Assembly (NCBI RefSeq): GCF_000374085.1
Contig: NZ_KB893488.1
Location: forward strand, 1-64,000
Direction: 5' to 3'
Source: Spirosoma spitsbergense DSM 19989
Lineage (GTDB): Bacteria; Bacteroidota; Bacteroidia; Cytophagales; Spirosomataceae
DNA length: 64,000 bases
Shown: piece by piece, positions 2,086 to 25,224 of the stretch
Layout: every line of letters begins with the position of its first letter
Position numbering within the stretch: position 1 is the first letter of the stretch
Translations under genes and position numbers: made by a program
The notes under the pieces: model-generated
Database searches by the model: none
What the model saw: only the letters and a program-made list of their open reading frames with translations
Told to the model about the DNA's origin: nothing

Positions 2086-5000
2086 ATGCGAAACGTACTA
2101 CTTCTTCTTTGCTCAATCTTATTTATCAGCCCGCTACTGGCGCAGAAACCTAAATCGGCCAAACCAACGAAGGTAACAACGGCCACAGTTAAGGACTCAA
2201 CCCTCAACAATGATCCCTATTTTAAACCCGTCCGGTGGCGAAACATCGGGCCGTTTCGCGGGGGTCGCTCCGTGGCCGGAACGGGCGTCACCTCCGACCC
2301 GCAACTGTACTACATGGGTACCGTGGGCGGGGGCGTCTGGAAAACCGACGATGCCGGCATGACCTGGAAAAACGTGTCCGGTGAGCAGTTGAAAACATCG
2401 TCCGTCGGGGCCATAGGCGTGTGCGAGTCCGACCCGGCGGTGGTATACGTGGGCATGGGCGAACACGCCCCCCGGGGGGTGATGTCCTCCTACGGTGACG
2501 GCGTGTACAAATCGACCGATGCGGGCAAGACCTGGAAACACCTGGGCCTCGACCTCACCCGCCACGTGGCCGCCATCCGGGTACACCCGCAGAACCCGGA
2601 TGTAGTCTACGTAGCCGCCCAGGGTGCACTGCACGGCGCTACCCCCGACCGGGGTATTTACAAAACCACCGATGGCGGCAAGACCTGGAAGAAGGTGCTG
2701 TTCGTGGACAACAATACGGGTTGCAACGACCTGAGTATGGATATGACCAACCCGCGCATTCTGTATGCATCCATGTGGGACTACCGGCGGTTGCCCTGGC
2801 AGGTGCAGAGTGGCGGCAGTGGCAGCGGCCTGTACAAATCCACCGACGCGGGCGAAACCTGGACCAAACTCGAAAAAGGGTTGCCCAAAGAGCTGGGCAA
2901 GATGGGCATTTCGGTATCCAAAGCCAATCCAAACCGGGTGTTTGCCGTGATAGAGTCCGACTCCAAAGCCGACAAAGGGGGCGTTTTTCTCTCCGACGAT
3001 GCGGGTAAAAGCTGGAGCCGGGTCAGTAAAGACCACCGCACCATTCAGCGGGCCTGGTATTACATCGAAATCTTCGCCGACCCGGTAGATGAGAACACGG
3101 TTTACGTCCTGAACACCTCCGTCCTGAAATCCATCGACGGGGGTAAGACGTTCAGCCCGATAACGGGGTCGCACGGGGATAATCACCACCTGTGGATCAA
3201 CCCGAACAACAACAAAAACCTGCTGCTGAACAACGACGGGGGCGCGGCCATCACCTTCAACGGGGGTAAGTCGTGGTCGTCGGAAAACAACCAGCCCACG
3301 GCGCAGTTTTACCGCGTCAATGCCGATAATCGTTTTCCGTACAACGTCTACGGCGGACAGCAGGACAATACGTCGGTCATGATTGCCAGTCGTACTACCA
3401 CCGGCAGCGGCATTACGGAAAAAGACTGGACACCCTCGGCGGGGGGTGAAAGTGCGTTTCTGGCCTTCAATCCCGACGACCCGCGCTACGTGATGGGCGG
3501 CAGTTATCAGGGAACCATCGAAGTACTCGACCAGCAGACCCACGAAGGGAAAGGCATCATGGTGTCGCCGATTCAGTACCAGGCCTTGCAGGCCAAAACG
3601 ATGAAATACCGGTTCAACTGGAACGCCCCCATCATCTGGTCGAAACACGAGCCGGATGCGTTCTACCACGCCGGAAACCGACTCTTCAAAACAACAAATC
3701 TGGGCAAAAGCTGGTCCATCGTATCGCCCGACCTAACCCGCCACGACTCCACCAAACTCGGCTGGGGCGGGGCACCCTATACCAACGAAGGGGCAGGCGG
3801 AGAGAACTATGCCACCATCGCCTACGTGCTGGAATCCCCCGCCGAAAAGGGCGTTATCTGGACCGGCAGCGACGATGGACTCGTGTACCTTACCCGCGAT
3901 GGGGGCACCACCTGGACCAACGTAACACCGAAGGGCCTGGAGGAAACGCTTATTAACTGCATTGACGTGTCGCCCCACGATAAAGCTACGGCCTACATTG
4001 CCACCACCCGCTACAAATTCAACGACTTCGCCCCGGCCATTTACAAAACGACGGACTACGGCAAAAACTGGACGAAACTCGTTAACGGCATTCCGTACGG
4101 GGCGTTTACCCGCGTTGTCCGGGAAGACCCGGAGCGCAAAGGCCTGCTTTACGCCGGTACCGAAACAGGTCTGTACATTTCCTACAACGACGGGGCCAAC
4201 TGGCGACCCTGGCAGTTGAACATGCCCGTCAGCCCCATCAACGACCTGAAAGTACATCAGGGTGATTTGCTGGCGGCAACCGGCGGACGCTCCTTCTGGA
4301 TTCTGGACGACCTTGGCCCCATTCGGCAGTACGATGCCAAAGCCAGCAAAGACAGCCTGCTGGTCTACAAACCCGAAGATGCCCACCGCGTGTCGGGGTC
4401 CAGCGCGCTGGATAAAGTGGTGGAAGAAGAGGACGACGAAGATGCGGGCAGCAGTCCCGGCCGCAGTGGCTTCGCGGGGGTGAACCCCTCGACGGGTGTG
4501 GTGATGTATTACCAGCTACCCGCCAAAGTGGATACCAGTCAGACGCTGACGATGGCTATTCTGTCGGCGCAGGGAACGGTACTGCGGACGCTGAGCAGCA
4601 AAAAAGACAAGAAGTTCGTGAAGTTCCCCGGCGGGCCATCACCGGAACCCACACTGACCATGCGCCCCGGCCTCAACCGCTTTGTGTGGGACATGCGCAC
4701 CGAAACCCTGCCCGCCATCGAGAAGGTGTTTATCGAAGGCAACTACGCCGGGCGCAAAGTAGCTCCCGGCGCGTATCAGGCGAAGTTAAAACTGGGTAAG
4801 CAGGAGAAAACAGTGCCGTTCACCATCCTGCCCGACCCCCGTATCAAAGCAACCGATGCGGACTATGACGAACAGCAAAAAACGCTGGTGGGTGTTGAAG
4901 AGGGTGTAAAAGAGATTCACCAGGGGGTTAACCGAATGCGGAAAGCGCAGAAGCAAATCAACGACCTGGTCAACGTCATCGACGATAAACCCAGTCTGAA

Positions 5001-22190: not shown

Positions 22191-23081
22191 ATGCAACTCC
22201 TTGACGGTAAATTTCTTTCGGCACAAATCAAACAGGAAATAGCGGCTGAAGTCGCCCAGATTCGCGAACAGGGCGGCAAAATCCCGCACCTCGTTGCCAT
22301 TCTGGTTGGGAATAAAGGTGCTTCGGAAACCTACGTGGCGTCCAAAATGAAGAACTGCGAGGAAGTAGGTATGCACTCCACCCTCATCCGGTTAGACACC
22401 TCGGTTTCGGAAGAAGAACTGCTGGACAATGTGCGGGCGGTAAACGAAAACCCCGACATGGACGGGTTGATTGTGCAACTCCCCCTCCCCGACCATATTA
22501 ACCCCGACCGCATCATGGAAACCATCGACCCCGCCAAAGATGTGGACGGTTTTCACCCCATCAACATTGGTCGCATGGCCAAAGGATTACCCGCCTATGT
22601 TTCGGCTACACCCCAGGGCGTGCTGGAAATGATCAAACGGTACGATATCAAGACCGCCGGCAAACACTGCGTGGTGGTAGGACGGAGTCAGATTGTTGGG
22701 CTGCCGATGTCCATTCTGATGCAGCGCAACACCTACCCCGGCAACTGTACCGTTACCGTCACCCACAGCCGTACCCAGAACCTGGCCGAGATTTGCCGTT
22801 CGGCCGATATTTTGATAGCGGCTCTGGGCAAACCCGAATTCGTCACCGCTGACATGGTGAAGGAAGGGGCCGTAGTGATTGACGTTGGGCTGGAGCGGGT
22901 GCCTGATGCCAGCAAAAAAAGCGGCTTTGCCCTCAAAGGCGATGTAAAGTTTGATGAAGTAGCCCCGAAAACCAGTTTCATCACCCCCGTTCCCGGTGGC
23001 GTGGGACTAATGACTATCTGCTCGCTGATGCAAAACACCCTGAAAGCCGCCCGGGGTGAGGTGTACGGAACAAATCAGTAA
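22191..23081 (+). CDS. folD: Bifunctional methylenetetrahydrofolate dehydrogenase/cyclohydrolase
   Basis: This 296-residue enzyme interconverts 5,10-methylene- and 10-formyl-tetrahydrofolate in the cytoplasm. Motifs include the substrate region [15 protein letters not shown] with the catalytic Lys, [13 protein letters not shown], the Rossmann signature [13 protein letters not shown] and the C-terminal [11 protein letters not shown]. Its last 51 sense bases before GTNQ (23018-23068) recur exactly at 24444-24494. There they run on into an alternative in-frame tail ending at a TAG. So the current C-terminus (VYGTNQ) seems to have been supplied by the inserted cassette. Confidence 0.97.
23018..23068 (+). 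repeat. 51-bp direct repeat, left copy (inside folD 3' end)
   Basis: Starts CTGCTCGCTGATGCAAAAC and ends GAGGTGTACGG. It is identical over 51 bases to 24444-24494. It is the coding 3' end of folD and behaves like the left attachment site of an insertion. Confidence 0.9.
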
Positions 23082-23111
23082 TCTATAATCCTATCTCAAA
23101 CCAAGTAAGAC

Positions 23112-23552
23112 GTGTATAGCTTTATTATCAGCACTCGTCCCAAATCGTACAACAGCAAAAAATCTCTTGCTTATGAAAACCAGTTGAGGGTTACTTATTC
23201 GGCCAACTATCCGATTCATGTTCCTGTCGAAACAGACTTATACGGATTGGTTCATCACTTTTTTCGGCGTGATATAGGTATTGATGCCGATAACCTGAGT
23301 AAACCGGTCTGGGACGCATTGAGAGGTTTACTTTTTGCAGACGATAAGCAAGTGAAACTGCGTATTGCCGGCAGTTTTAACCTATCAACCAACGATTTCA
23401 CAACCATAGACTTTTCCGGATTGTCGGGTAGCATGATTACTTCTTTGCTTGATGCTTTGCAGGAAGAAACTGATGAGCACATACTTTACGTTGAATGTGG
23501 TAAATTCACTACCGACATGATTAAGCTAAATCTGGAAAGGAATGGAAATTAG
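23112..23552 (+). CDS. RusA-like endonuclease
   Basis: GTG-started, 146 residues. The core DIGIDADNLSKPVWDALRG continues to LFADDKQV and fits the RusA Holliday-junction resolvase pattern: Asp58-x-Asp60-Asn, Lys64, and a third acidic position at Asp77/Asp78. RusA dimers cut branched DNA. The N-terminal part is beta-rich as in the family, but the C-terminal helix-rich tail differs. It overlaps the next gene by 11 bases. Because phage RusA proteins usually sit beside replication genes, this pairing with a restriction-like nuclease is unusual. Family assignment rests on the Asp/Lys motif. Confidence 0.65.
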   Translation: MYSFIISTRPKSYNSKKSLAYENQLRVTYSANYPIHVPVETDLYGLVHHFFRRDIGIDADNLSKPVWDALRGLLFADDKQVKLRIAGSFNLSTNDFTTIDFSGLSGSMITSLLDALQEETDEHILYVECGKFTTDMIKLNLERNGN

Positions 23553-24165
23553 ACAGCAATATCTGCAACGCTATCTTCACGACATAGCCATAGATCAGCT
23601 AATGGCAGACTATGAGGCTAAAGGCTATACCGTTCTGAAAGAAGAAAAAGTGGGTAAATACAAGGCAGATCTAGTGGCCAAAAAAGAGGATGAAGTAGTC
23701 GTTGTTGAAGTTAAAACCGGGCGAATGACACCACAAAAACGCCAACAGGTTGCCGACATTGGTGACTACGTTCGTACCCACAAGAATTACAAGTTTTTAG
23801 TCGTATTGGCAACTCCTCCTAAACCAAAGAAAATCGATATTCCAAATCTTGATCTATTGCTATTCCATTATTTGCTCAACCATCTCCCTGATAGTCTTAA
23901 CGCATTATCTCCTCAAACACGTATTACTGATGTAGTTGACACGGCTGCTAACGAAGTCACGGTAGGTAGAGACGGCAGTATGGTTGTAAAAGGAATGGGA
24001 ACGGTGGAAGTACAACTGCAATATGGTTCAGGTGACGATGAGTCAATATCACATGACGCTTTTCCATTTGATTTCGACATTGTCCTCAAATACAATCAAA
24101 AGCAGGAACTGATTATAGAAGATACGCACACGATTGATGTCGATATCTCGTCATTCTATGAATAA
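23542..24165 (+). CDS. PD-(D/E)XK-like nuclease with C-terminal beta domain
   Basis: 207 residues. The N-terminal half has the restriction-endonuclease-fold pattern GKYKADLVAKKEDEVVVVEVK: Asp43, then Glu56-Val-Lys58, with a conserved-looking Thr/Gly after it and an upstream helix (about 10-28). The C-terminal half (about 120-207) is a separate beta-rich acidic domain (GMGTVEVQLQYGSGDDES, then IDVDISSFYE). A similar ending is seen in some defence-associated nucleases, though this is from memory and unverified. It overlaps the RusA-like gene and precedes the YgiT-like gene by 3 bases. Nothing suggests a methyltransferase partner, so host protection, if any, must be by another route. Confidence 0.68.
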   Translation: MEIRQQYLQRYLHDIAIDQLMADYEAKGYTVLKEEKVGKYKADLVAKKEDEVVVVEVKTGRMTPQKRQQVADIGDYVRTHKNYKFLVVLATPPKPKKIDIPNLDLLLFHYLLNHLPDSLNALSPQTRITDVVDTAANEVTVGRDGSMVVKGMGTVEVQLQYGSGDDESISHDAFPFDFDIVLKYNQKQELIIEDTHTIDVDISSFYE

Positions 24166-24168
24166 AGT

Positions 24169-24426
24169 ATGGGAAACGAATCTGAAAACCAGAGAATCAT
24201 GACCTGGCCTGACGAGACGCTGGTAGATTCCCGCGTTCGGTACATTCTGGACCTCGACGGAAAACTGCTTGTTTTTGAGGACGTTCCGGCCCGCGTCAAC
24301 CCCGTTACGGGTGAGCAATTTTTCTCCCCGGCTACGATCCGCCAGATTCAGCAGATTGCGTTTTCGGCCAATGCTCCCGCCCGAACAATTGAAGCCAGCG
24401 TATACGACTGGGCTAACGCAGCCTGA
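24169..24426 (+). CDS. YgiT/MqsA-like small protein without zinc cysteines
   Basis: 85 residues. The block LLVFEDVPARVNPVTGEQFF continues SPATIRQIQQIA and ends with IEASVYDWA. It matches the C-terminal half of YgiT-type antitoxin zinc-finger domains (VPAxVCxxCGExxxxPExxxxL). The Cys positions are replaced (Asn-Pro-Val), so zinc is unlikely to be bound there. Such proteins usually act as antitoxins or transcriptional partners of small toxins. Starting 3 bases after the nuclease, it may be the regulator or antidote of the cassette. That role is inference. Confidence 0.6.
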   Translation: MGNESENQRIMTWPDETLVDSRVRYILDLDGKLLVFEDVPARVNPVTGEQFFSPATIRQIQQIAFSANAPARTIEASVYDWANAA

Positions 24427-24443
24427 TTTTTTTTACTGCCCAC

Positions 24444-24494
24444 CTGCTCGCTGATGCAAAACACCCTGAAAGCCGCCCGGGGTGAGGTGTACGG
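24444..24494 (+). repeat. 51-bp direct repeat, right copy
   Basis: Identical to 23018-23068. In the folD frame it continues VYGLPTQPDRL and then TAG at about 24520, which would be the ancestral folD C-terminus before insertion. Confidence 0.9.
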
Positions 24495-24798
24495 GTTGCC
24501 AACCCAGCCTGATAGACTATAGTGAGTGGTCAGATAAAGGAGCCCTACCAACGCAGCCACGGCGTTCATAAACCAGACGGCTTACTACCGTTCGGGCCTG
24601 AAATGGCCAGCGATGCTACCGAAATTCAGGTGAGCACCGCTGGCGTTCTGGATGCGGTCCGGTAGGTAGTTAACCAATTACCTGGTGGCATTATGAGCGT
24701 ACTGTCGCTGCGGGAGCAGGGTTTCACCTACCAGGTTACCGCAGCATTTTCAGGAATGCAGGGGCATCCGCCCGCCCGGATAGTCGAGTGGCGTACTA
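24495..24798. other. Intergenic stretch after the cassette
   Basis: The first 28 bases are the presumed former folD end. The rest holds no recognisable gene. A 20-codon open piece at 24603-24665 (MASDATEIQVSTAGVLDAVR) reads like a fragment of a protein, but nothing supports expression. Confidence 0.4.
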
Positions 24799-25155
24799 TC
24801 AGGGACGACTTTCTGGTCTGCCGACAATGGTCTCCAGCGTATTTCCTTTTCGGCCATTACAGTGCTGGCACATGGGCTGGTAATTGGCCAGTTCACTGGC
24901 TCCCCCCCTGGATTTGGGCAGTATGTGGTCAACGGTCATCAGTACGAAGCTGGCCGTGTACAGGTCGACGTGATGCCCGCCACTGGGATTAACCGACGAC
25001 AGCAGGTGCACCCCTTCAACGCCACAACGCACGCAGACTGTACCCTTGCTGGCAAATACCTGTAATCGCCGGTGGTTCTTGTACCTGGTCTGTAATAGCT
25101 CAAAATTCAACCGCTTGAGCACGCGGTTCCCGTTCAGGGTATGCGGTAATTTCAT
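24799..25155 (-). CDS. HNH endonuclease
   Basis: 118 residues from ATG 25155; a GTG at 25179 would add eight. The HNH site is plain. CVRC forms the first zinc knuckle, MTVDHILPKSRGG has the Asp-His pair of the first beta strand, and NYQPMCQHCNGRKGN gives the second CxxC and the catalytic Asn/His region. HNH proteins nick or cut DNA in restriction, mobile introns and phage packaging. No partner gene is adjacent on this strand. It faces the folD cassette, only 304 bases from the right repeat, so it may belong to the same nuclease-rich hotspot. Confidence 0.85.
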   Translation of the reverse strand: MKLPHTLNGNRVLKRLNFELLQTRYKNHRRLQVFASKGTVCVRCGVEGVHLLSSVNPSGGHHVDLYTASFVLMTVDHILPKSRGGASELANYQPMCQHCNGRKGNTLETIVGRPESRP

Positions 25156-25224
25156 AAGAATAGTCACTGGATCAGGCACAGAGGGTATTTCCCTACAATC
25201 TACCTGATCGCTCTATAATTAACC

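Follow-up and report, generated by a model that had tools for sequence, protein, structure and literature searches.

Recombinase-free cassettes behind folD and other housekeeping genes of Spirosoma: candidate entry by host recombination with related DNA

A three-gene cassette between two copies of the folD 3' end

We analysed a window of 64,000 nucleotides from Spirosoma spitsbergense DSM 19989 (positions 1 to 64,000 of contig NZ_KB893488.1, assembly GCF_000374085.1), in which three compact genes lie between two direct copies of the 3' end of folD (Table 1). Similar arrangements, in which a small cassette separates a housekeeping gene from a second copy of its end, recur at other genes of the genus, and this recurrent anatomy is of more interest than the single folD island. 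Compared genomes and loci carry labels of the form G0xx and Lxxx, respectively, with G000 denoting the source genome.

The two copies matched at 51 of 51 bases, and a 63-base query holding 50 of the repeat bases found only two places in the source genome at E <= 0.001; the chance expectation for such a pair is 4e-22 in 64 kb. Only one other direct-repeat family of at least 28 bp was present within 6 kb in the window, consisting of five imperfect 32-nt copies (2338-4073). In the second copy the folD frame runs on to a different stop codon, reading GEVYGLPTQPDRL. The exact repeat and the continuing frame, both reported in the initial annotation of this DNA, were thus confirmed. The source genome is a draft of 237 contigs, and because the same folD anatomy occurs in G020 (3 contigs) and G032 (1 contig), a draft-assembly artefact is an unlikely source of the repeat. 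No tRNA was found in the window, and a tRNA-based island was rejected on that ground.

Table 1. Features of the folD locus, in coordinates of the window
Feature	Position	Strand	Evidence
folD, host gene	22191..23081	+	Pfam THF_DHG_CYH, THF_DHG_CYH_C (6.3e-64)
51-bp repeat copy 1, within folD 3' end	23018..23068	+	sequence comparison
RusA-like Holliday-junction resolvase gene, GTG start, G+C 0.406	23112..23552	+	Pfam RusA, PHROG RusA-like
PD-(D/E)XK nuclease gene, G+C 0.407	23542..24165	+	Pfam AHJR-like and pP_pnuc_2, PADLOC Aga_Nuclease
Putative orphan YgiT-type antitoxin-like gene, G+C 0.547	24169..24426	+	NCBIfam YgiT_finger, below cut-off
51-bp repeat copy 2, 17 nt past the antitoxin stop	24444..24494	+	sequence comparison
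302 bp unmatched in 35 other Spirosoma genomes	24495..24796		sequence search
HNH endonuclease gene, right flank in common with the cassette-free G028 site	24799..25179	-	Pfam HNH 1.3e-10

The first cassette gene matched Pfam RusA (2e-7; 32.1 bits against a cut-off of 22.8) and a RusA-like PHROG (2.5e-6). Its product also contains D58-A-D60-N61-L-S-K64, invariant in an alignment of five sequences and conforming to D-x-D-N-x-x-K, which we take to be the RusA resolvase motif, so that both the model score and the motif identify it as RusA-like. The second gene matched Pfam AHJR-like (5.7e-11) and pP_pnuc_2 (2.7e-10) as well as PADLOC Aga_Nuclease (8.7e-11). Residues D43, E56 and K58 of its AHJR-like domain, presumably those of the nuclease motif, were invariant among three aligned sequences, and its C-terminal domain is of the type found in pPIWI/Argonaute-associated nucleases. 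Defence is a plausible function for the pair, and genes at the folD locus may be co-transcribed. Profile matches of the cassette genes to Pfam, PHROG, PADLOC and NCBIfam included no integrase or recombinase, in agreement with the earlier description of a cassette lacking its own recombinase.

The third gene matched NCBIfam YgiT_finger with an E value of 0.0028 and 17.9 bits, under the cut-off of 20.2, and its product contains no cysteines. In G032 a DUF4258 gene (1.6e-24) precedes and overlaps a small antitoxin-like gene, and in G011 a broken DUF4258-type gene, recognized by eye, stands ahead of the antitoxin-like gene. DUF4258 and the small gene may form a toxin-antitoxin pair; the YgiT-type label would then denote a likeness in working only, suggested by the DUF4258 neighbour in G032.

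In the window, the nuclease gene stops three bases before the start of the small gene, which is the position where DUF4258 ends in G032. The initial annotation had described three compact genes of lower G+C; three open reading frames (ORFs) are indeed present, but low G+C holds for the first two only, the third (Table 1) being close to folD (0.543) and higher than the average of the window (0.508). Because the nuclease ends where DUF4258 does in G032, and because of this gap in G+C, the cassette appears to be composite: the data fit a low-G+C RusA-nuclease pair joined to an orphan antitoxin of host-like G+C.

Insert-free sites and changing cargo at folD across Spirosoma

Comparison of 36 Spirosoma genomes, G000 included, placed a second folD tail 0.6-1.4 kb behind folD in four (G000, G020, G030 and G032); ten other secondary matches to the folD tail lie elsewhere, one of them being a decayed folD in G017. 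Near relatives have insert-free sites. In G028, which the folD tree places as sister to G000 (support 100/99), folD is followed by 50 bp and then by the HNH and esterase genes found also in G000, with 514 of 610 bases alike between the HNH flanks of the two genomes. Similarly G022, a member of the clade that also holds G030 and G020, has only one folD tail, and the DNA after it matches the DNA after the second tail of G020 (spacing 231 vs 228 bp). The cargo between the tails differs as well: G020 carries a 392-aa ORF, WG-repeat-like by eye, and the cargo of G030 and G032 differs in part. Cassette-free relatives and other cargo between the same repeats, both of which the initial annotation had suggested looking for, therefore exist, the latter fully in G020 and partly in G030 and G032.

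Its view of the three genes as a single unit did not hold. The RusA and nuclease genes were found in five of the 36 genomes, with strong matches behind folD only (in G018 the nuclease is truncated, and in G017 the pair stands behind the decayed folD), and in four of the five no second folD tail is present. Relatives with the same genes but no repeat, named beforehand as speaking against such an island, thus nearly occur. The repeat instead tracks the small antitoxin gene, which had strong matches in four genomes, all behind folD, and is accompanied by the repeat in three of them; eight weaker matches (E 2.7e-5 to 0.06) lie elsewhere. By eye, the last codons of the antitoxin gene remain in G003 as a 3' remnant. 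The repeat starts ahead of the small gene's stop codon in G030, and a weak folD-tail match in G032 (16/24 bases) also reaches that stop, which suggests that this codon is part of DNA derived from folD.

Two further folD loci are irregular. In G017 (L047, L048) the folD at the usual locus is decayed, and an intact copy lies ~158 kb away beside other genes; we considered and rejected the idea that the G017 cassette had moved away from folD. The folD of G016 (L096:2588-3461) is in pieces in different frames, through decay or sequencing errors.

The same anatomy at other genes

We surveyed 2.04 Mb, comprising 439 kb of the source genome, counting the window, plus 400-kb samples of G020, G032, G024 and G148, the last from another genus of the same family. 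The survey took two-copy direct repeats of 36-260 bp with at least 80% identity, 0.25-3.5 kb apart, and cassettes were sorted by eye. Nine repeats fell within these limits and six of them enclose a cassette, four in the 0.44 Mb of G000, one in G020 and one in G032 (0.4 Mb each). The other three were dropped, L134 as a G+C-rich repeat and L222 and L227 as lying inside genes.

Besides the folD cassette, with its RusA-nuclease pair and antitoxin-like gene, G000 has a PIN system at the end of a TIM-barrel gene (L187), HipBA with a split HipA at the end of comM (L190) and a PIN system at the head of a methyltransferase gene (L179). G020 has DUF2281-like and MazF/PemK genes at the end of an oxidoreductase gene (L152), and G032 has ParDE at the end of tyrA (L168). 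We take the names comM and tyrA to be correct; the Pfam matches Mg_chelatase and PDH_C are in keeping with them. Toxins were recognized by matches to PIN_3 (6.9e-17), PIN_2 (1.8e-24), HipA_C (1.2e-53), ParE (2.4e-17) and PemK (3e-13).

In L190 (15128-16380) the HipA-like gene behind comM is split over two overlapping ORFs. In L179 (1246-2146) a PIN toxin-antitoxin-like operon precedes the methyltransferase gene, whose head is duplicated upstream (84%). This locus led us to reject a rule of 3' ends only. No cassette was found in the 400 kb of G148. The tail-repeat matches L186, L150 and a second one in the window are not cassettes. Inverted repeats, of which 16 pairs were listed, do not form a full control: in the one pair looked at (L213), two recombinase-like genes were seen by eye.

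Cargo of varied size at comM and tyrA

A second comM tail was present in four of 35 genomes with a match, behind inserts of 1.7 kb (HipBA), 6.8 kb (SspA and SspD), 10.4 kb (metabolic genes) and 55 kb. The second tyrA tail was found in two of 35, namely G032 (0.5 kb) and G016 (28 kb). Among 30 tyrA loci fetched, six have ParDE (in pieces in G016), 16 have the next gene in place and eight have neither.

The 6.8-kb comM insert of G035 carries defence genes of the phosphorothioate type and no integrase family, with strong matches to SspA (6e-162) and SspD (7.6e-95). No integrase or transposase family was matched at E <= 0.001 by the 18 listed ORFs of at least 75 aa in the 6.8- and 10.4-kb comM inserts; two of the 18 matched no family. 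The G035 insert (L297:1145-7716) also holds a partial PbeA-like gene as well as Tpt1-like and HNH genes. In G032 (L298-L300), the 3' part of comM is duplicated over 655 bp around 55 kb of DNA, with ORFs of up to 2925 aa by eye.

The initial annotation had proposed that the island replaces the last residues of FolD, which would make copy 2 the old folD end. We compared the flank of copy 2 with relatives at ten loci, setting L152, L187 and L179 aside. Copy 2 stands on its native flank at seven of the ten: folD in G020 and G032, comM in G034, G035 and G032, and tyrA in G032 and G016. In the folD locus of G000, 302 bp of unmatched DNA follow copy 2, and this locus lends the proposal no support.

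Repeat copies that look like two alleles

We then compared the copies codon by codon. Differences at codon positions 1/2/3 numbered 0/0/9 (G000), 0/0/4 (G035), 1/0/40 (G032) and 1/1/4 (G034) for comM; 0/0/2 (G032) and 2/1/2 (G016) for tyrA; 2/5/4 for the TIM-barrel gene; 2/2/3 for the oxidoreductase gene; and 2/2/1 for folD in G030. Over these nine pairs, 69 of 90 differences fell at third positions. The bias is strongest in a post hoc group of four pairs (comM of G000, G035 and G032, and tyrA of G032), where it reaches 55 of 56, an outcome with a probability of 4e-9 on the assumption that random decay of copy 2 made up half of the changes. Since nearly all of these differences are at third codon positions, the copies of the four pairs appear to have diverged as working genes, which argues for donor and resident alleles brought together rather than for one copied target.

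Proposed route of entry

On this comparative evidence, and with slightly better than even confidence, we propose that small recombinase-free cassettes behind housekeeping genes enter by host recombination with related DNA. Incoming DNA of a related strain, bearing that strain's allele of the gene end with cargo behind it, would be joined inside the resident gene by host homologous recombination, so that this gene stays intact and takes on the donor's end. A second, illegitimate junction would form within the tail of the resident gene, or else the whole event would be one crossover with a small circle. The resident tail would remain as copy 2, as a rule beside its native flank, and would later decay. 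At folD, a cassette of DUF4258 and antitoxin may represent the older layer; in G000 the low-G+C RusA-nuclease pair would have replaced the toxin, the antitoxin staying behind as an orphan. A more specific version, in which Spirosoma 'homology-arm' cassettes carry conserved gene 3' ends and so land precisely through host recombination with the gene kept whole, is possible but tentative.

Several observations weigh against this route. The five other differing pairs have only 14 of 34 differences at third positions, with no strong bias; they fit older inserts with a decaying copy 2 and alone lend no support to the allelic view. The identical folD copies of G000 provide no test of it, and neither copy is clearly nearer to a sister species, so that donor and resident are not separable. 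Random illegitimate joins would predict a broader range of repeat lengths than that observed. Flanks are not always native: the 302 bp after copy 2 in G000 (24495-24796) had no match in the 35 other Spirosoma genomes, and no relative matched the flank after copy 2 at folD in G030 or the 244 bp after comM copy 2 in G000. Cargo and repeat also part company, in the four RusA-nuclease loci with a single folD tail and in the ParDE loci behind tyrA, where a second tail within 1.5 kb was found in G032 only. No cassette was found in 400 kb of G024, also a Spirosoma, and L179 is a real cassette at a gene head. Repeats occurred at 13 of 1532 gene tails vs 7 of 1461 heads (9 vs 5 with paralogues removed), which is only mildly in favour of tails, so that gene heads do not serve as a clean control. 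Finally, the antitoxins of L187, L168 and L179 are named by position, with no Pfam match. Close to its start the 302-bp stretch has a 16-bp near-copy (14/16) of the end of the antitoxin gene, which may be chance.

Alternative explanations

Integration by a site-specific integrase acting in trans, with gene 3' ends as attachment sites for non-autonomous islands or satellites, would account for the use of gene ends and for host genes left whole. Measured from the stop codon, the tyrA repeats start at nearly coincident positions (-59 and -56 in the two genomes), as do those of folD (-63 in G000 and -66 in G030; in G032 a start near these is indicated by the weak 16/24 match only). The comM repeats, however, start at -656, -133, -104 and -92. 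Relative to the stop codon, nine of the ten repeats end within -13 to +19 and the tenth at +65; lengths are mostly 45-140 bp, and most repeats are 82-97% alike with no identical core. Because the starts vary, and with several unrelated genes behaving alike, the fixed attachment site suggested by the initial annotation is unlikely. The targets include one gene head, and the two comM inserts examined hold no integrase family, although the genomes elsewhere were not searched for an integrase. We consider an integrase in trans unlikely.

A second alternative, improbable in our judgement, does without mobility: an old folD cassette would have been inherited by descent with many losses, and a local duplication of the tail kept alike by gene conversion. 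The strong matches to the antitoxin and the RusA-nuclease pair at folD only, the antitoxin remnant in G003 and the ease of clean loss between direct repeats are in its favour, and in G000 and G030 each tail is closest to the folD of its own genome, as conversion would yield. Against it stand the differing cargo between the tails, the absence of the G000 and G020 inserts from near relatives, the recurrence of the anatomy at other genes and the third-position bias in four pairs.

The cassettes might also be relics of bigger integrase-bearing islands, each reduced to an addiction module between attachment sites. Larger inserts do occur at the same ends (6.8, 10.4 and 55 kb at comM; 28 kb at tyrA). 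By eye only, a resolvase-like ORF and insertion sequence-like ORFs are present in the 55-kb insert, and insertion sequence-like ORFs in the 28-kb insert, of which two ORFs were checked against families. The 6.8- and 10.4-kb comM inserts, however, are without integrase families too. Moreover, the end of the last cassette gene falls 0-34 nt ahead of copy 2 at five loci, and its stop codon is within the repeat itself in G030; repeated random deletion is unlikely to give such closely placed ends, and we regard this explanation as quite improbable. Self-homing, in which the cassette nuclease would cut folD tails, repair would copy the cassette and RusA would aid resolution, draws on the conserved motif residues of RusA and the PD-(D/E)XK nuclease and on the location of RusA at folD only (5/5 genomes), yet is very improbable given that the repeat is absent at four of five RusA-nuclease loci and that other cargo (the 392-aa ORF of G020, toxin-antitoxin pairs) has the same anatomy.

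Relation to known systems

Insertion with long target duplication was reportedly described by Nobusato in 2000 and Furuta in 2010, for restriction-modification genes and first in Helicobacter pylori, a host unlike Spirosoma, which we take to be a genus of Bacteroidota. According to PMC3874152, restriction-modification cassettes seem to be self-inserting between variable target repeats 'in the order of 100 bp'; PMC3031569 and PMC1643837 also cover the process. The Spirosoma inserts resemble it in that a target of tens to hundreds of bp is present once in the free site and twice around the insert (G022 vs G020), as seen also at comM in G034, G035 and G032 and at tyrA in G032 and G016; G028 vs G000 is alike apart from the 302 bp of extra unmatched DNA. 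The cassettes and the 6.8- and 10.4-kb comM inserts likewise carry no transposase or integrase family. They differ in cargo (toxin-antitoxin, RusA-nuclease and Ssp-type rather than restriction-modification genes), in recurring at the same housekeeping gene ends and in the four pairs that look like two alleles rather than a copied target. We therefore claim a likeness in working, as a cargo variant, rather than strict membership.

A parallel for the junctions may be homology-facilitated illegitimate recombination or crossover of a circle, in which one junction is homologous and the other is not. In an Escherichia coli conjugation test presented in PMC3240628, 56 of 60 clones gave a polymerase chain reaction product for a partial lacZ duplication; the 14 sequenced duplications, of 109-950 bp, are attributed there to single crossover of a circle, and the measured frequency of homology-facilitated illegitimate recombination was very low. 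The Spirosoma case differs in being read from genomes only. As to the cassette genes, PMC5361080 proposes for Vibrio cholerae type VI effector-immunity modules that an incoming module is placed ahead of the existing one, whose immunity gene stays as an orphan, as the antitoxin may do behind the Spirosoma nuclease pair; the Spirosoma locus is different in being non-secretion and in the duplicated end of the host gene. Integrase-type genomic islands, known at the ends of trmE, dusA and tRNA genes, share the gene-end position and the intact host gene, whereas the Spirosoma cassette has no recombinase and no fixed core was seen.

Among the open-licence PMC papers listed by word searches, none dealt, judged by title and start of abstract, with gene-end duplications around toxin-antitoxin cassettes. 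It is an open question by what means solitary toxin-antitoxin genes of the chromosome, and small defence genes, move when no transposon or integrase is involved. The class of 'homology-arm' cassettes, if real, would provide recombinase-free mobility for addiction and defence genes, with a variable number per genome. Allelic-looking gene-end repeats, insert-free sites and cargo changes at folD, tyrA and comM are marks of entry readable across one genus, and the route is therefore testable by transformation in laboratory strains.

Occurrence beyond the genus

We compared the FolD tail with 241 genomes of the order (nine of them Spirosoma), of which 224 gave a match, and re-searched the 24 with two or more matches among those listed, G000 and G030 excepted. 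None of the 24 had a second folD tail near folD on the same contig, in a survey blind to weak tails in distant genera and to tails split over contigs. A search of 50,697 phage and 72,556 plasmid records gave no relative of the nuclease at E <= 0.01, and none of 130 stretches of viral contigs that fitted a pattern was confirmed; we accordingly rejected a phage or plasmid origin on the records searched. A pattern scan of genome contigs identified two loci, both in Spirosoma.

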